From IMG/VR virus record IMGVR_UViG_3300020160_000051, positions 1-34,407 of that record: a stretch of DNA of 34,407 nt. One strand, 5' to 3'. Positions 6,655-23,834 of this stretch are shown here, piece by piece (the stretch's first letter is position 1; each line of letters begins with the position of its first letter). The translations under genes were made by a program, and so were the position numbers. The notes beneath the pieces were generated by a model. That model was not told the origin of the DNA and made no database searches. It saw only the letters and a list, made by a program, of their open reading frames with translations. The stretch is from a virus.

Positions 6655-8172
6655 TTAGCCACCATACTTGCTACGGAAGTCAGCGGCGATCTGTGCGCGA
6701 CGGCGTGCGGCCAGCTCATCAGCCTGCTGGGCAGCGAGTGCCTCTTGCTCTTGGCGAGCAGCACGGTCTTGCAGACCCTTTTCGCGAGCGGCGCGTGCTT
6801 TCTCTTGGTACGAGTTGTAGTCTACGCGAGCGTTGAGTTCTTTCTCGGTAGGCTTGGTCTCGGTAGGCTTGGTCTCGGTAGGCTTGGTCTCGGTAGGCTT
6901 AGAAGGCTTGACCTCAGCAGCTGGTGTGGTCTTGACACCTTCTGGCTTGGCAGTGGGCTTGTTGCCACCACCCCAGCCGGGAGCACCCTCGCCACCACCA
7001 TGCTTAGAAGGGTTTAAGCCACGACCAATCATGAGAGAGTTCATAGCAGCTGTGTCACCCTTGCGTTCGGCGGCTTGCCACGCAGTAGTTTTTGTGAGCT
7101 CAGTGAACTGCTTATTTTCGGCGGCCGTAGCCGCAGTTTCTGGCTTGCTACCCCACGCAGCCGCTTGTGCAGCGTACAAGCCCTTCTTGTATGGCACAAG
7201 GCTAGCTTCACCTTCACTGGCCGCAATAGTAGCTTGTTTAGCGCGGACACCAAGCGCCCACTCGGCGACGTTACCGGGGTCTTCCGCTTGCTTGCGCAAG
7301 TACGCGGTCGCCAGATCAGCGCTTTGGAACGACTCAGTGCGCAACACTTTCGTAGGTTCAGCGTCGCTCACCAGATTCAGAATGACTTGACCGTTTGCAC
7401 CTACTGCTTTGACAAAGTGAGTGCCATCGGCAAAGTTTTTGTCATCTTTGTGCAGGGTCAGCAAGCCATCGAGGTCTTTGCCTTTTACAGCCTTCTTGAC
7501 ATAGGTGTCCAGAACTTCGAGTTCGGCCTTGTCGATGCCAGAGATTTGCGAGGCCACAGTGAACTGTTGGCCACGGTTGAGCTGGTGCTTGGCTGCCAAC
7601 GACTTAACTGCCGTCATGTCGCTTGGGTTTTCAAGGGCGCTGTAGTCCTTCTCGAACGCTTGCATGCGCACGGCGTCTTCGTCTTCACGCATCGCCTTGT
7701 TGAGCTGCAAACCTGTGAGCTGCTGCTGCTGGGCACGAGCTGTTAGTTCTTCAGCTTTGTCGATCTGGCCATACGAGCGATACACGTCAGACAGACCTTG
7801 AGTACGCAAAGGAGCTGCGGCTGTCTGCGCTTCCTTCATAGTGTCAAAGTTCTTGCCGCCGTCGTAGCCACCGCTAGCCACAGAGTAGTCGGGGCCAGAC
7901 AGGCCAACACGACGACTCAGTTCAGCCATGGCTGGGGTGTACTGCTCATGCACCTGTTGGATTTGCTCAGGCGTAGCACCTTCGCCTAGACCTTGCAGCG
8001 CTTGGTCACGTGCGCCGATAACTTGTTGTAAGTTTTCGTTCAGGCCAGAGCCATAGGCACCTTCGGTGACTTTGTACTTCTTAGCTTCCTCAGCCAAGTC
8101 CTGTTGCATCATGCCTTGTCGGATGACGTTGCCGAGGTTGATACCTGCGTTTAAACCTTCTGCCCAGCCCAT
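6655..8172 (-). CDS. Internal virion protein (T7 gp15-like position)
   Basis: A 505-aa, mostly alpha-helical, Ala/Glu/Gln/Lys-rich protein between two other ejection-block genes. A strong AAGGAG lies six bases before the ATG. No enzyme motif is visible. Residues about 360-445 form a Gly/Pro-rich linker that includes tandem PTETK repeats (about 425-444). A highly charged Arg/Ala/Gln/Glu helix follows to the end. The size, the helical composition and the order 262 aa - 505 aa - 1947 aa parallel the T7 gp14-gp15-gp16 ejection proteins, though the middle one is shorter than T7 gp15. The assignment rests on gene order and composition, not on recognisable sequence similarity. Confidence 0.65.
   Translation of the reverse strand: MGWAEGLNAGINLGNVIRQGMMQQDLAEEAKKYKVTEGAYGSGLNENLQQVIGARDQALQGLGEGATPEQIQQVHEQYTPAMAELSRRVGLSGPDYSVASGGYDGGKNFDTMKEAQTAAAPLRTQGLSDVYRSYGQIDKAEELTARAQQQQLTGLQLNKAMREDEDAVRMQAFEKDYSALENPSDMTAVKSLAAKHQLNRGQQFTVASQISGIDKAELEVLDTYVKKAVKGKDLDGLLTLHKDDKNFADGTHFVKAVGANGQVILNLVSDAEPTKVLRTESFQSADLATAYLRKQAEDPGNVAEWALGVRAKQATIAASEGEASLVPYKKGLYAAQAAAWGSKPETAATAAENKQFTELTKTTAWQAAERKGDTAAMNSLMIGRGLNPSKHGGGEGAPGWGGGNKPTAKPEGVKTTPAAEVKPSKPTETKPTETKPTETKPTEKELNARVDYNSYQEKARAAREKGLQDRAARQEQEALAAQQADELAARRRAQIAADFRSKYGG
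6843..6900 (-). repeat. 15-bp tandem repeat encoding PTETK units
   Basis: Almost four consecutive copies of a 15-base unit (plus-strand TCTCGGTAGGCTTGG) lie in frame within the 505-aa virion protein and encode Pro-Thr-Glu-Thr-Lys units. A 15-base period keeps the frame, so copy-number change would alter linker length without breaking the gene. Confidence 0.9.
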
Positions 8173-8174
8173 AA

Positions 8175-9536
8175 TCAGCTCCTTAATTCAAAGTCCAAGT
8201 CCGCCAAATGCGTTTGCAGGGCGGCCTTAATTTCTTCCAAACTCGCACGGTATTCGCCCAGCCGTTCTGGGTGCAGCGCCTTGAAATATGCGCTCTTGCC
8301 GTCTTCCCACCACGCGGTACACCCGAAACACTCGGGGGCGCTGATGCCTTTGTAGAAATCATACAGCGGGTTATATGGTGCGTCTACGGATGCGAGGAAA
8401 TCAAACACGTCTTGGTGCGACCAATCCTTGATCGGCAAACTCACGTGGTATGGCCCAGTATCACCTTCGGCGGGCACCGTGCCCGTATCGCACTTCTTTG
8501 TGCCACGAATCACGAGGTCAACGCCGTCGTAGATCATCTGCTCATGCAATGGGCGCATCAGGTTCTCAGCGCAGCAGTCAAAGCGGTTGGTGAGTCGTGG
8601 GCCGTCGAGGCCGTAGTAGCTGCCGATGTAGTGTGAGTTTGCTGGCACGAGGTCAGAGGGCGAACCATGCTTGGCACGCCACGCTTTCACGTCAGTCGTA
8701 ATCTCGATGAAGTTTGGCACAGTGGAGCGTACACGCTGCACTAGGTCTACGGTCTCAGGGCAGCCGTCACCAGTGTTCAGCCAATACACAGAGATGTATT
8801 TGGCGATGAACGGCTTGAGCAGGTACAGGCAGGCGAGGGAGTCCTTGCCACCAGAGAACTGCAACGCTGTCCTGCGACCCTTGAACGCGTGAGCGCGGGT
8901 GGACTTGCCGAACACCATGACACCATGGGAGAGCTTCTCCAGCAAAGGCATTACGCCCTGCACAGTTTCGCCCGGTGCGAGATGCTCGTCGTCCAGCGTG
9001 GCAACGACATCGAAGCCAATGGTCTCGGCGATGAGCCTAGCGTGCGACTTGCTGTAGCCTGTGTAATGCAGGGTTGACTTCAGCTCGGTAGCAACTGCTG
9101 CGGTGTCAGTGAAGATGTCGTGCAAGCACAACTTGCCGCCGGTCTTGAGCAGGCGGTGAGCCTCTTCGAGAACGTCAACAGCATCGCCATGGCCGAGGGC
9201 GTAAGCGAGCACAACACACGCGTACTCGTCAGGTGCCAAGCCAGTATCACTCATATCCGCAAGCACTTGAACAGTGTTGACAGGGGAGTGGCCGAGCTGC
9301 CAAGCGTGGATGTTGACCAGCGTGAATTGCAGGTCTGGGCGAATACTCAAAGCGATGCGTGCAAACTCACCAGTGCCAGAGCCCAAGTCAACGACCTTGG
9401 CCCCGTAGGGCAGGTCTAGCGCGGTGAGCATAGCTTCCACGTGACCTTGCTCGGTATCAGCTAACCGCCAAAAGTTCAGGAGTTTGACTCCCTCTTTGTT
9501 CAGCGTGGAAGTTGATTCGGTGATTGCATCCGTCAT
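8175..9536 (-). CDS. Fusion: SAM methyltransferase + PAPS-reductase-like PP-loop ATPase
   Basis: A 453-aa two-domain enzyme. Residues about 20-210 form a class I S-adenosylmethionine methyltransferase with motif I VVDLGSGTGE (D50-E57) and a later EEAHRLLKTGGKL segment typical of small-molecule-type methyltransferases. Residues about 222-450 form a PP-loop adenine-nucleotide alpha-hydrolase with SGGKDS (228-233) and PIKDWSHQDVFDFL (368-381), as in the PAPS reductase/DndC superfamily. Cysteines C321, C322, C349, C403 and C406 could bind metal or an Fe-S cluster. The C-terminal ECGLH motif of true assimilatory PAPS reductases is absent, so sulfate reduction is unlikely. Nucleotide or nucleic-acid modification is more plausible by inference. 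The ATG overlaps the preceding virion gene stop (ATGA), and the next gene starts three bases beyond its stop. Confidence 0.85.
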   Translation of the reverse strand: MTDAITESTSTLNKEGVKLLNFWRLADTEQGHVEAMLTALDLPYGAKVVDLGSGTGEFARIALSIRPDLQFTLVNIHAWQLGHSPVNTVQVLADMSDTGLAPDEYACVVLAYALGHGDAVDVLEEAHRLLKTGGKLCLHDIFTDTAAVATELKSTLHYTGYSKSHARLIAETIGFDVVATLDDEHLAPGETVQGVMPLLEKLSHGVMVFGKSTRAHAFKGRRTALQFSGGKDSLACLYLLKPFIAKYISVYWLNTGDGCPETVDLVQRVRSTVPNFIEITTDVKAWRAKHGSPSDLVPANSHYIGSYYGLDGPRLTNRFDCCAENLMRPLHEQMIYDGVDLVIRGTKKCDTGTVPAEGDTGPYHVSLPIKDWSHQDVFDFLASVDAPYNPLYDFYKGISAPECFGCTAWWEDGKSAYFKALHPERLGEYRASLEEIKAALQTHLADLDFELRS

Positions 9537-10321
9537 ACCGCGACAGCGCCTGCGCCGAGGATAGCGCCGTACATCTGGCCTTCGGCGTTCATTGCAGCGT
9601 TGTTCTGGCTGACTTGCGCGTTGAGCATTGTGCCTGTGCCTTGGATGCCCATCTGAGCGCCGCTCATCATGGTGCCTACGCCTTGGCCATACTGCTGCGC
9701 AAACGCGTTGCCCGGTGCCATGGCAGAGTTCAAGCCGGAAGTGCCAGCGCCGGTAGCGCCTTGGTATGCAGCAGTAGAAGCGCCAGCAAGGTTGCGGCCG
9801 AGGCCAGTAACGTCCATGCGGCGAGCCCAGCCCATTTGTTCAGCCTGAGTGCGTGCGCCTGTCATTGCCTGTGCGCGTTGTGCAGACAGGCCGAGAGCGT
9901 TTTGATTCTGCATGGCTAGGCCAGCGCCAGAGTTCATGTTGATACCACGAGCGGCTGCCGCGCGGGACGCCATGGCTTGAGTTTGCCCAAACGCTTGCGC
10001 AGATGCAGCTGCCGCTTCACGGGCAAGCTGTTCACGGTATCCGACAGTGCTAAATTCTTGAGCGTCTCGCGCAAGACCCTGCTCAATAGGGCGAAAGGTG
10101 CCCTTCTGGTAGTTGTAATAATCTTGCGCCTGCTGCATCTGCTGCTGCTGTGCTGATAGCTGCTGCTCATAGACACGCTGTGCAATAGGCTTCATCTCAC
10201 GGTACTGCTGCTGTGCAATATCCATCTGGCGGTTGCCCAGACGTTCAGACACCTCGGCGGCGTACTGGTTAGCAGCGGCCATAGCCGTATAGTCTGGTGC
10301 TGGTGCTGATTTTCCACCCAT
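9533..10321 (-). CDS. Internal virion protein (T7 gp14-like position)
   Basis: A 262-aa protein. Residues 1-100 are helical and Gln-rich (long runs of Gln with Tyr and Met), followed by Ala-rich helices. Residues about 160-262 are Gly/Ala/Met/Gln-rich and weakly hydrophobic. This composition is typical of the small ejection protein that forms the outer-membrane pore in podoviruses. A strong AAGGAG precedes the ATG by six bases. It sits directly after the GNAT-like gene and before the methyltransferase fusion, which it overlaps by four bases. Assignment is by composition and order, since T7 gp14 homologues diverge strongly in sequence. Confidence 0.65.
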   Translation of the reverse strand: MGGKSAPAPDYTAMAAANQYAAEVSERLGNRQMDIAQQQYREMKPIAQRVYEQQLSAQQQQMQQAQDYYNYQKGTFRPIEQGLARDAQEFSTVGYREQLAREAAAASAQAFGQTQAMASRAAAARGINMNSGAGLAMQNQNALGLSAQRAQAMTGARTQAEQMGWARRMDVTGLGRNLAGASTAAYQGATGAGTSGLNSAMAPGNAFAQQYGQGVGTMMSGAQMGIQGTGTMLNAQVSQNNAAMNAEGQMYGAILGAGAVAV

Positions 10322-10324
10322 GAA

Positions 10325-10741
10325 TTACTCCTTGCGCAGCCAGCGACACTTGTCGGGCCACATAACCAAAACGTGCATGTCAGCGCCGGGTGCGCCGTCT
10401 TTCATCACAAACTCTTCCTCGAAACCGAGGTGTTTGTCAAATGCCAGTATTTTAGGCTCATTCGAGGGAACCATGCCAGTTAATCTTTTCAACTTGCAGA
10501 AATCAAATGCGTACTTGCAACCATGCTCGATGAGCAAGGGAGTGGCCCGGCTGAACCTAGATACGGCAATGTGGCACGTAGCGTTCGCCCCGTTGAAGTT
10601 GTTGAACACCACCCCAGCGATGATTTCGCCGTCACGGACGATGCCGAGGGCGTAGAAGCTGCCCCACTCACAGGTTTGGCCGACCTGCTGGGCGACCCAT
10701 GCGCCTATGGCTTCCTTCTGGTCGAAAACGAGTGTGTCCAT
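10325..10741 (-). CDS. GNAT-family acetyltransferase-like protein
   Basis: A 138-aa protein with the outline of a GNAT fold. A strand pair around residues 30-60 (GIVRDGEIIAGVVFNNFNG, then CHIAVSR) is followed by a helix and by LTGMVPSNEPKILAFDKHLGF at 88-107, which corresponds to the C-terminal GNAT motif. The usual acetyl-CoA pyrophosphate loop (Q/RxxGxG/A) is not clear, so catalysis is uncertain. Similar proteins are common among podovirus virion genes, where they may be structural or may modify host or virion proteins. There is no clear ribosome-binding site. The gene starts eight bases after the upstream fibre gene and is probably coupled to it. Confidence 0.75.
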   Translation of the reverse strand: MDTLVFDQKEAIGAWVAQQVGQTCEWGSFYALGIVRDGEIIAGVVFNNFNGANATCHIAVSRFSRATPLLIEHGCKYAFDFCKLKRLTGMVPSNEPKILAFDKHLGFEEEFVMKDGAPGADMHVLVMWPDKCRWLRKE

Positions 10742-19019: not shown

Positions 19020-20060
19020 TCAAACTGCATATCGAATAATGACGATGCCTGAACCGCCGTTGCCTGCGCTAAATCCATAGGCTCCGCCGCCGTTATACCC
19101 CGCACCGCCGCCACCGCCGCCAGTATTGGCAGTGCCAGCTACAGCGTTGCTTTGGTAGTTCTGACCGCCACCACCACGCCCGCCACCGCCGGAGCTACCA
19201 GCGCCTGCGTACTGTGTGCTGTATGCGCCGCTATACGAAGCACCGCCACCGCCACCGCCAGCGTAGTAGCCGCTATCTCCAGTAGAAGTTGCAGACGCCC
19301 AAGCGGAATGTGCGTTGGACCCAGCCCCACCCGAACCTGCGGTTGTCCCGGCGTTACCTCCCGCCGCGCCTTTGCCGCCACCGCCACCGCCTGTGTAGAT
19401 ATTGGTGGGGGTGTATTGGTAGCCAGTTCCACCGGCGTTGCCCTGCCCAGAGGTTCCGGCACCACCTGACTGCGAGGTATAAGAGCCACCCCCGCCACTT
19501 CCGCCCGATGCAGCAGCGGTGTCTGAGTGACCGCCTCGACCGCCGCCAACAGCAGAAGCACCAAACGCAGAACTGTTGACCCCGCTGGTGCCAAGCGTGT
19601 GCCCAGCGACAGTACCTCCAGCACCAACGATAACGTCGTAGGAGCCGATAAACGCACTAATCGTGCCGGTAATATACCCACCAGCCCCGCCGCCGCCGCC
19701 GTAACCGCCACCAGCGCCACCACCAGCAATAATTAAATACTCAACAGATTTGCTTCCACCAACCACTTGAAATGTGCCAGACTGTGTGAAAACATGGTAA
19801 CGATACCCGCCAGATTCGACACTGGAGTTGCCACCAATAGCAGCAAACGCGCCGATACCAACCCACTGCGAAGTTGCGGCGTCGTAATACTCAATATACC
19901 CAGTGGTAGTGTTCTTGCGAATCATCGAACCATTAGGCGAGCCGGGGCGCTGCGCAGTCGTGCCGGAAGGCAAACCGAAATACCCAGTAGACGTGTTCGC
20001 CTTGTCGCTCACCGCTGAGGGAACGATGTTCATGCTGGCGAGTTCTCGTGCTTTACTCAT
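19020..20060 (-). CDS. Glycine-rich tail adhesin, paralogue C (short)
   Basis: A 346-aa protein. It starts almost directly with the shared fibre module (TTAQRP at 34-39, then YIEYYDAATSQW at 55-66) and lacks the long N-terminal attachment domain of its two paralogues. A GGYRYHVFTQSGTF segment leads into a glycine-rich domain (about 113-335), which closes with GIVIIRYAV. Runs of glycine broken by Ser, Ala, Asn and Tyr resemble the polyglycine-II-helix adhesins of T4-like gp38 type. It probably binds the host surface, and AAGGAAG precedes the ATG. It may work as a tip protein on another fibre, because an attachment domain is missing. Confidence 0.65.
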   Translation of the reverse strand: MSKARELASMNIVPSAVSDKANTSTGYFGLPSGTTAQRPGSPNGSMIRKNTTTGYIEYYDAATSQWVGIGAFAAIGGNSSVESGGYRYHVFTQSGTFQVVGGSKSVEYLIIAGGGAGGGYGGGGGAGGYITGTISAFIGSYDVIVGAGGTVAGHTLGTSGVNSSAFGASAVGGGRGGHSDTAAASGGSGGGGSYTSQSGGAGTSGQGNAGGTGYQYTPTNIYTGGGGGGKGAAGGNAGTTAGSGGAGSNAHSAWASATSTGDSGYYAGGGGGGASYSGAYSTQYAGAGSSGGGGRGGGGQNYQSNAVAGTANTGGGGGGAGYNGGGAYGFSAGNGGSGIVIIRYAV

Positions 20061-20069
20061 GTTTCTTCC

Positions 20070-21368
20070 TTACGCGGTGAATGTGCCAGATGTGGTGAAT
20101 GTGTGGTATGTGTAGCCGCCAGAGCTCGACACTGTGCCGCCAGTACCGCGTTGCGAACCTGTGTAGCGCACAATTACTACGCCTGAGCCGCCATTACCAC
20201 CGATCGTTGACGCACCATAGCCGTTACCGCCGCCACCGCCGCCACCTGTGTTACCTGTTGCGTTAGCCGGCGCGCCATTAAGGTTTGCTCCTGCACCACC
20301 ACCACCCGCTCCTGCGGCTCCGCCGGTCCCTTGATATGCGCCACCGCCACCGCCACCGCCGTAGTTGTTGCCCGCCCAAGTAATGCCGGTACCGCCAGCG
20401 CCGCCGTTGTTTCCATTACCAACGTTTCCAGCGCCGCCAGCGCCGCCGCCGCCGCCGCCGCCATACGTCGCGCCAGATGCGCCAGCGTAACCTTGCCCGG
20501 ATGTTCCTGCGCCGGCAGTCGAGGAGTACCCAGATGCACCACCACCAGAACCTCCAGAAAGCCCGGGCGATGTAGATGACTCATATGAACCGCCGCCTCC
20601 GCCACCCAAGCACGTAGTCGTCAAGAATGAACTGTTAATACCATTCGACCCGCGTGTCGATTGGCCGGCTCCGCCAGCACCTCCGCCACCAACAACCGCC
20701 GATAACTGCGTTGTGGGGACCACTAAAAACCCGGAGACTTGTACTGCCCCTCCAGCACCGCCGCCGCCGCCCATATACCTACCGCCGCCACCGCCACCGC
20801 CAGCAACAACAAGGTACTCGATTGAGTACGGTACAGCCAACTGGAGCCACGCTCCCCCGTTGTAGTATTCGGGGAACCCGATTTCGGTATTGAATCGAGT
20901 CATGCCCGCACTAGGCGAAGCAGGACGCTGCGCAGTCGTGCCAGACGGTAAATCAAAATATCCAGTGGACGTATTCTCTTGGTCGCTCACAGCCGTTGGG
21001 CTGGGTGCTGTCACTGTCTGCCAAGTGTTGTCGTCGCGCAAGAACTTGCTGCCGTTGGGCGTGCCAGTGGGCTTGAGTGGGAATTTTGCATCAGCTTCGC
21101 TTTTGCGATACGTGTCGATCAAGCTAACAGGCCAGTAGGCCACAGCGCGGAGTTCATCGGCTTCAGCAGCCGCTACGGTAAGCGTGACTGTTGTACCGTT
21201 GGTAGCCACGAAGTCAGTAGACAGCAAGCTAACGCCGTTGAGCTCGACATCAATGTAGCCGGGCACATACCCACCGACGATGGTGAACGCGGTCTGGCCT
21301 GCTGTTGCAACCAGCTCACTGACCGTACGAACGGTTTGTCCAAATGGGGGTACGCCTACGTAACTCAT
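20070..21368 (-). CDS. Glycine-rich tail adhesin, paralogue B
   Basis: A 432-aa protein. Residues 1-85 form a beta-rich N-terminal domain (YIDVELNGVSLLSTDFVATNGTTVTLT) typical of fibre attachment modules. NGSKFLRDDNTWQTV at 105-119 is a common fibre linker, and the shared TTAQRP module is at 144-149. A glycine-rich domain (about 190-400) ends in VVIVRYTGS. A short extra tail (about 414-432) repeats the YHTFTTSGTF segment that precedes the glycine domain in paralogues A and C, so the protein ends at the beginning of another unit. The ATG overlaps the stop of the preceding 92-aa gene (ATGA). A receptor-binding fibre role is likely. Confidence 0.65.
   Translation of the reverse strand: MSYVGVPPFGQTVRTVSELVATAGQTAFTIVGGYVPGYIDVELNGVSLLSTDFVATNGTTVTLTVAAAEADELRAVAYWPVSLIDTYRKSEADAKFPLKPTGTPNGSKFLRDDNTWQTVTAPSPTAVSDQENTSTGYFDLPSGTTAQRPASPSAGMTRFNTEIGFPEYYNGGAWLQLAVPYSIEYLVVAGGGGGGGRYMGGGGGAGGAVQVSGFLVVPTTQLSAVVGGGGAGGAGQSTRGSNGINSSFLTTTCLGGGGGGSYESSTSPGLSGGSGGGASGYSSTAGAGTSGQGYAGASGATYGGGGGGGAGGAGNVGNGNNGGAGGTGITWAGNNYGGGGGGGAYQGTGGAAGAGGGGAGANLNGAPANATGNTGGGGGGGNGYGASTIGGNGGSGVVIVRYTGSQRGTGGTVSSSGGYTYHTFTTSGTFTA
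20440..20462 (-). repeat. GCC/GGC trinucleotide run inside glycine-rich adhesin B
   Basis: An almost perfect GCC run on the plus strand (GGC codons on the coding strand) encodes an uninterrupted glycine tract. Tracts of this kind are prone to slippage, and loss or gain of three bases keeps the frame. Similar shorter runs occur in the two neighbouring glycine-rich genes. Confidence 0.8.
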
Positions 21369-22520: not shown

Positions 22521-23834
22521 CTATACCTTATACCGGATGATGACCACGCCACTGCTACCGTTGCCGCCACGATAGCTGCCAGATTTACCTGTACCACCAC
22601 CGCCGCCACTACCACGGTTTACCGTTGCGTCACCACCGTTACCGCCAGATGCAGAACCACCTGCGCCACCCACACCGGACCCGCCAGTAGCTGCCGAGTT
22701 ACCACCGTTCGTGTTATATACACCGCCGCCGCCGCCACCTGCGTAATAAAGCGACGTTCCAGTGATTGAGTTGGCGATACCAGCACCGCCAGCACCACCG
22801 TTGCTGCTACCGGACGCATTGCTTCCAGCTCCACCAGCACCGCCGCCGCCGCCGCCGGGGTAGTACGGATTGCCACCACCAGACCCGCCAGCATAGCCTT
22901 GGCCCGATGTTCCAGCGCCGCCAGCTCCCGGTGGAGGACTACCACCGCCAGCGCCGCCGCCACCGGAACCACCGGAACCACCAGCACCAGCGTCTTGCCC
23001 GCGACCAGCACCGCCGCCGATAGCAGTTGTAGCTAAACTGATACTTGAGTTAGTACCCGCTGTGGCTAGGCCGTTTACGCTGCCTAAATTACCGGGGCCA
23101 CCAGCGCCGACGACCACAGAATATAACCCTGTAGATGCAGCTACTCCTGTCGTGTAGACATAGCCTCCTGCACCGCCACCACCGCCACCACCGTCGCCGT
23201 CAAATCCACGACCACCCCCAGCGCCGCCAGCGACAACGAGAATGTCCACGTTCTTTGAGCCTTGTTGGACTGTGAAGTTTCCTGATGCAGTAAACGTATG
23301 TACTTTGTAGTCGTACGTTCCATCGTTGTATGTGGTCTCAGTACCACCAGAAGCTGCGAACGCACCTACACCAATCCACTGCGATGTTGCAGCGTCGAAA
23401 TACTCGATGTAGCCTGTAGTTGTGTTCTGGCGAATCATGCCAACCGCAGGCGAAGCAGGGCGCTGCGCAGTCGTACCAGCAGGTAGCGTTGCCGCACCAG
23501 TGCCATTCAAGTTGCTGGCGTCAAGCTGCAATTTACCGACGCTACCAGCAGTTGGCACGATGGATGCCAGCGGTTGGTCACGGTAGATCACGTAGATGTT
23601 GCTTGAGCCTGAGCTCGGTGCTTCGCTGAACGTCAGCGTTGTGTTGTTGATCGAGTACGAGCCGTCGTATGGCGACTGGCGCACGTTGTTCACCAGCACC
23701 TCGATGTCGGATGCCTTGAGTACAGAGCGGGCCAACGTGAACGATGTGGTCGAGCCGTTGCCGCTGAACGGTTCAGCCTGAGCCGTAGCAAACGCTACAG
23801 GTAGTGGAGCAGCAGAAGAGCCGATGTAGGCCAT
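22521..23834 (-). CDS. Glycine-rich tail adhesin, paralogue A
   Basis: A 437-aa protein. Residues 1-88 form an N-terminal beta domain (NGSTTSFTLARSVLKASDIEVLVNNV at 26-51, YVIYRDQPL at 81-89) characteristic of phage fibre attachment domains. The shared module has TTAQRP at 121-126 and YIEYFDAATSQW at 142-153, and a YKVHTFTASGNF segment leads into a glycine-rich domain (about 203-425). It ends VVIIRYKV, as in the other paralogues. The glycine domain suggests stacked polyglycine-II helices with variable loops that could bind a surface receptor. The ribosome-binding site is poor, with the preceding gene ending five bases earlier. Confidence 0.7.
   Translation of the reverse strand: MAYIGSSAAPLPVAFATAQAEPFSGNGSTTSFTLARSVLKASDIEVLVNNVRQSPYDGSYSINNTTLTFSEAPSSGSSNIYVIYRDQPLASIVPTAGSVGKLQLDASNLNGTGAATLPAGTTAQRPASPAVGMIRQNTTTGYIEYFDAATSQWIGVGAFAASGGTETTYNDGTYDYKVHTFTASGNFTVQQGSKNVDILVVAGGAGGGRGFDGDGGGGGGGAGGYVYTTGVAASTGLYSVVVGAGGPGNLGSVNGLATAGTNSSISLATTAIGGGAGRGQDAGAGGSGGSGGGGAGGGSPPPGAGGAGTSGQGYAGGSGGGNPYYPGGGGGGAGGAGSNASGSSNGGAGGAGIANSITGTSLYYAGGGGGGVYNTNGGNSAATGGSGVGGAGGSASGGNGGDATVNRGSGGGGGTGKSGSYRGGNGSSGVVIIRYKV

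Follow-up and report, generated by a model that had tools for sequence, protein, structure and literature searches.

What reaction would be carried out by a protein that joins a methyltransferase (MTase) to a PP-loop ATPase in one chain, and that is encoded among the late virion genes of a phage? We addressed this question for a 34.4-kb virus record, whose late genes lie on the minus strand; "the window" denotes the whole analysed stretch of 34,407 nucleotides. The gene is defined by the following features:

8175..9536, minus strand: MTase-PP-loop fusion protein (P0001), a CDS of 453 aa (ORF call, Pfam, PHROGs, AlphaFold2)
8886..9536, minus strand: class I SAM-dependent MTase domain, residues 1-217 (Pfam, structure, family alignment)
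8178..8867, minus strand: PP-loop ATP-pyrophosphatase domain of the PAPS_reduct type, residues 224-453 (Pfam, alignment, structure)
9366..9389, minus strand: SAM motif I DLGSGTGE, residues 50-57, with glycines 52, 54 and 56 invariant in 20 aligned homologues
8838..8855, minus strand: SGGKDS, the PP-loop motif, residues 228-233, shared by all 74 homologues of a set gathered with this motif in the pattern (SGGRDS variants exist outside the set)
8394..8435, minus strand: PIKDWSHQDVFDFL, a conserved PAPS_reduct segment, residues 368-381 (sequence and alignment)

The three motifs share one frame in the ORF of 453 aa, exactly as an earlier note on this DNA had read them. According to Pfam, Methyltransf_23 and Methyltransf_11 match at residues 41-151 (E 2e-7 and 2e-6), and PAPS_reduct starts at residue 224 (E 2e-11). 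AlphaFold2 models the whole chain with a pLDDT of 81 and a pTM of 0.81, and the PP-loop domain alone with a pLDDT of 94.5; Foldseek groups the N-terminal part with SAH-bound class I MTases. Pfam, PHROGs and the structure models all point to these two domains, the N-terminal one being the SAM-methyltransferase proposed in the note rather than another fold. The fusion of an MTase and a PP-loop ATPase is a real, recurrent and misnamed enzyme. The profile PHROG_424, named 'phosphoadenosine phosphosulfate reductase', spans residues 10-440 (E 1e-47), so that this architecture is already contained in it, unremarked; the MTase half alone matches the profile as well (E 3e-18). While the profile covers both halves, its name refers to a PAPS reductase only, fails the motif test described below and omits the MTase.

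Relatives of the PP-loop domain were collected from viral contigs, and the best 80 of 307 confirmed stretches were kept. Most of them encode the domain as a protein of its own of about 240 aa, and the fewer remaining ORFs extend upstream into an MTase; a search with the MTase domain enlarged the set. The IMG/VR contigs encode at least 17 distinct fused proteins from at least two MTase clades, always with the MTase first, so the two-domain order read by the earlier note is found elsewhere and the halves do not always occur as separate genes. One more in-frame case (L076) is evident from its coordinates. Proteins of the same two-domain build are encoded on independent contigs and are 43-56% identical; because so many contigs share the architecture, a chance fusion or an assembly error was ruled out. 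The window MTase falls within a group of nine fused proteins (tree support 95), and a second, distant group of fused MTases comprises L136, L143, L161, L163, L152 and L158. Fused proteins do not group together on the PP-loop tree but are interspersed among unfused ones, with seven changes, and a tree with one fused clade, i.e. a single origin of the fusion, was rejected. The fusion arose at least twice. L084:4590-5711 and L086 instead carry a PF03692 CxxCxxCC domain (E 3e-7) N-terminal to the PP-loop domain in one chain; hence an accessory domain of another kind can also occupy this position.

The closest relative of the window phage, L003 (58 kb), possesses a capsid protein 97% identical to that of the window and a PP-loop protein 88.5% identical to the window PP-loop; the MTase is absent. 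Two features describe the difference:

8862..9530, minus strand: stretch missing from L003 (DNA comparison; flanks 83-85% identical)
9533..9536, minus strand: ATGA stop/start overlap with the upstream virion gene (sequence)

The two DNAs are 83% identical up to the ATGA overlap (9531) and 85% identical again from the codons of LQFSGGKDS (8861), and what lies between, about 670 bp, is a sharply bounded difference. Neither form interrupts the reading frame of the PP-loop. The window phage and L003 constitute a natural experiment, with gene versions that differ mainly by the MTase domain.

Both halves are also linked as separate genes. The MTase gene lies downstream of the PP-loop gene with a 4-nt overlap in L116 (a prophage of Caballeronia sp. 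SEWSISQ10-4), L063, L067, L070 and L115, and upstream of it in L081 (4-nt overlap) and L039 (short gap). A scan with the MTase only, in which the PP-loop was not used as a query, gave 59 loci; it revealed further abutting pairs, and in some records the MTase is far from the PP-loop gene. A PP-loop homologue is present in 27 of 27 MTase-bearing records of at least 27 kb (22 + 5; these counts ignore relatedness), one of these genes, that of G030, being weak and disrupted, and the nine MTase records without a PP-loop are all fragments of less than 25 kb. The baseline consists of 14 records whose capsid protein is at least 87% identical; one contained the PP-loop and none the MTase. As a positive control, the MTase model matches seven known carriers. 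The MTase is absent from 27 of 30 sampled PP-loop records, and a narrower model points the same way. The dependence is therefore one-way, of the MTase on the PP-loop, and fits a second reaction that starts from what the PP-loop enzyme has produced; the latter, usually found without the MTase, can therefore function by itself or together with an enzyme of the host. Judged by this distribution, the MTase is optional and needs the PP-loop enzyme as its partner, and both halves probably carry out one modification reaction.

Alternatively, the halves may have unrelated jobs, cargo having gathered at one late-operon site where neighbours fused by chance. Solitary PP-loop genes are common, L003 differs at the fusion gene only by the MTase stretch, the PP-loop tree mixes fused and unfused forms, with its seven changes and the rejected one-clade topology, and the MTase is distant from the PP-loop gene in some records, all of which this explanation accommodates; yet the PP-loop accompanies the MTase in every record of at least 27 kb, even far apart, against 1 of 14 in the baseline, the fusion arose at least twice, and tight coupling occurs in both gene orders. 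We consider this alternative rather unlikely.

With regard to the MTase half, the seven-stranded fold and the glycine-rich motif I DLGSGTG of class I enzymes are present (Pfam, AlphaFold2, Foldseek). One further residue is of interest:

9312..9314, minus strand: Asn75 at the end of strand beta-2, invariant in the 20 aligned homologues and Asn in all 56 that contain the motif

The homologue alignment shows a family signature of R66, D68, N75 and Q80 (RxDLxFxLxN). In class I MTases, an acidic residue (Asp or Glu) is usual at the end of beta-2. In this family the position is invariably Asn, and because an acidic residue is not strictly required for class I, Asn75 marks a subfamily. TleD, RebM and sarcosine/dimethylglycine MTase share the class I fold and motif I, but not the Asn after beta-2, nor is a natural-product context found here. 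The solved structural relatives are mostly small-molecule MTases and therefore give no support for a nucleic-acid substrate; motif IV of nucleic-acid amino-MTases, (D/N/S)PP(Y/F/W), was not found in the homologues; such letters occur in L115 only, where they precede motif I. Among 50,697 GenBank records of cultured phages, no MTase of this kind was found at E 1e-5 or, in a separate search, at E 0.01, so that this collection offers no isolate for a test. A single-sequence search with the MTase half returned only an unrelated-looking 31% match in the jumbo phage L005, and a nucleotide search of the first 25 kb of the window against cultured phages returned no match.

Two observations concern MTase homologues in other records. 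In L027:4437-5693, the fused MTase-like domain lacks motif I and the stretch after it, and the PP-loop half is intact; since motif I is lost, a non-catalytic role is possible there, and the domain is possibly a dead MTase retained for such a role. In L096-L101, stand-alone MTases of this family are encoded within the head module, flanked by portal-like and scaffold-like genes; a further small MTase and a glycosyltransferase-like gene are close by. The PP-loop match in these records is weak (E 6e-5) or, in short fragments, absent.

The PP-loop half combines the SGGxDS motif and the Rossmann-like PP-loop fold of N-type PP-loop ATP pyrophosphatases (sequence and model). In addition, it contains a predicted metal site:

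8571..8576, minus strand: Cys321-Cys322, first half of the predicted four-cysteine metal site (74 of 74 homologues; aligns with CC of 7lhr)
8319..8330, minus strand: Cys403-x-x-Cys406, second half of this site (74 of 74 homologues; aligns with CxxC of 7lhr)

The earlier note had seen possible cofactor ligands among the cysteines, and the alignment bears this out: C321, C322, C403 and C406 form an invariant CC...CxxC pattern. As this pattern lines up with that of the APS reductase 7lhr, it suggests that the site is a holder of a 4Fe-4S cluster. The nearest folds of the model are PAPS/APS reductases (TM about 0.53), followed by the sulfur transferases TtuA and LarE, including [4Fe-4S] LarE. TtuA and LarE both use ATP activation for sulfur insertion. 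They are fold neighbours among PP-loop enzymes, but at a TM of about 0.45, with another cysteine arrangement and without an MTase. One PP-loop clade (L015, L016, L020, L022, L058, L094, L106) has a conserved ELxEC C-terminus, which is missing from the window protein and most others, and which could represent a lost or alternative catalytic cysteine.

A DndC/SspD-like sulfurtransferase that adds phosphorothioate to phage DNA, the MTase contributing an additional modification, is improbable in our view. The intact SGGxDS and the cysteine site are in its favor, as are weak matches to the profiles of DndC (E 0.008) and SspD (E 0.01), but the DndC model TIGR03183 scores 15.1 bits on the fusion protein against a cut-off of 290.4. 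DndC is described with a three-cysteine 4Fe-4S site and a separate cysteine dyad (PMC10853773), unlike the four invariant cysteines in CC...CxxC spacing here. Of the partner genes of DndC/SspD/BrxP, which likewise have a PP-loop and a cysteine site in a different pattern, a cysteine desulfurase (Aminotran_5) is present in 0 of 20 related records, in which the controls worked, and a DndE search gave no match, with equally silent controls. The suggestion of the earlier note that phage DNA is possibly protected finds no support in these results.

Still less credible is a true PAPS/APS reductase for sulfate assimilation, i.e. an auxiliary metabolic gene with a fused MTase. It has the following in its favor: Pfam reports PAPS_reduct, the closest folds are PAPS/APS reductases, the CC...CxxC ligands of the 4Fe-4S cluster in the APS-reductase subtype are present at the sequence level in 74 of 74 homologues, and the homologous gp65 of phage JC1 is annotated so in print (PMC9144972). 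The catalytic C-terminal ECG(L/I)H, in contrast, occurs in none of the 74 homologues, as the earlier note had anticipated from the missing ECGLH, and the window protein ends in DFELRS without a C-terminal cysteine; an ECGIC terminus in L084/L086 and an EC pair in one clade are not conserved. Where the PAPS reductase 6vpu has SSFGIQA, the PP-loop family aligns with SGGKDS, and the degenerate, SFG-type sulfonucleotide-binding P-loop is thus absent. Every reductase model scores far below its cut-off. The assimilatory CysH enzymes therefore share the fold and the APS-type cysteine spacing with this family, but have the ECGxH tail that is lacking here, whereas the ATP-type SGGKDS is intact here.

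The neighbourhood of the gene consists of the following:

9533..10321, minus strand: upstream virion protein, 262 aa, PHROG_8003 (PHROGs; position of gp64, which is seen in the JC1 virion)
10325..10741, minus strand: GNAT-like acyltransferase, PHROG_4470 (PHROGs; kept in relatives without the PP-loop gene)
6655..8172, minus strand: downstream 505-aa protein in virion-gene position (relatives, gene order)

The coupling to a virion gene that the earlier note described is present as the 4-nt ATGA overlap. Nine relatives of the window phage encode a homologue of the 262-aa virion protein and, directly after it, an apparent counterpart of the virion gene that comes next in the window; the PP-loop gene is missing from between the two. 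Because relatives lack the gene between the same two virion genes, the fusion gene is accessory cargo in a late virion operon. The GNAT gene lies upstream of the 262-aa homologue in most of these nine relatives. Its linkage seemed strong at first sight, and it was considered as a functional partner; since it is retained without the PP-loop gene, it was dropped and regarded as backbone. In L262 and L263, a different protein of 290-330 aa takes the place of the GNAT upstream of the 262-aa homologue and marks a second cargo site. Elsewhere in the window, three glycine-rich tail-fibre-like proteins (19020-20060, 20070-21368, 22521-23834) have the segment TTAQRP.SP..GM.R.NT..G..EYY in common and are apparently tandem paralogues.

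The same site is occupied in Bcep22-type Burkholderia phages: BcepIL02 gp67 and JC1 gp65 are 39-41% identical over the PP-loop domain and lie between virion genes with the GNAT upstream, but they are 240 aa long and without an MTase. Packaging of the enzyme in the virion and its injection to protect incoming DNA, as the earlier note had considered from the position between virion-protein genes and the 4-nt overlap, is highly improbable, because comparison with relatives shows the gene to be inserted between two virion genes, and because mass spectrometry of the JC1 virion detected gp64, gp67 and gp68 but neither gp63 (GNAT) nor gp65 (PP-loop) (PMC9144972), evidence that is indirect for the fused form as JC1 gp65 lacks the MTase.

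We tentatively prefer, at slightly below an even chance, a late-operon cargo enzyme whose PP-loop domain activates and probably thiolates an acceptor, the product of which the MTase then methylates. The C-terminal PP-loop enzyme, with its predicted iron-sulfur cluster, would adenylate the acceptor and would then probably place sulfur on it; the N-terminal SAM-dependent MTase would methylate the product of this step, and fusion or tight gene coupling would hold both steps together. The analysis establishes the two domains, their motifs and invariant cysteines, the repeated fusion and adjacency and the one-way dependence of the MTase; the cluster type, the adenylation/thiolation chemistry, the order of the steps and the acceptor are inferred. 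Given four cysteines, the cluster may have no free iron to carry sulfur, unlike TtuA/LarE-type thiolases. As a phage-encoded sulfur donor was not found, the host would have to supply the sulfur. If this mechanism holds, there is about an even chance that the acceptor is a nucleotide or a nucleic acid, the latter being tRNA or phage DNA, for which other SGGxDS enzymes serve as the model; a small molecule is somewhat unlikely, and a virion protein more unlikely still. Of the two-step modification proposed in the earlier note, the partnership is thus strengthened by conserved linkage and co-occurrence, and phage DNA as the substrate is not.

A new two-step pathway of phages, in which a nucleic acid (or virion protein) would be activated or thiolated late and the product capped by a dependent MTase, remains doubtful as a whole; if true, it would imply a modification, e.g. 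an S-methylated one, so far unseen in phages. Among open-licence papers, we found none on a phage MTase-PP-loop fusion. Genes of this family carry the annotation PAPS reductase and are taken for sulfur-metabolism (cysH) cargo of phages; because the family lacks the catalytic parts of a reductase, these assignments should be re-examined. The recurrent fusion and the one-way dependence of the MTase provide a concrete, testable pathway, whose two halves would best be studied together.
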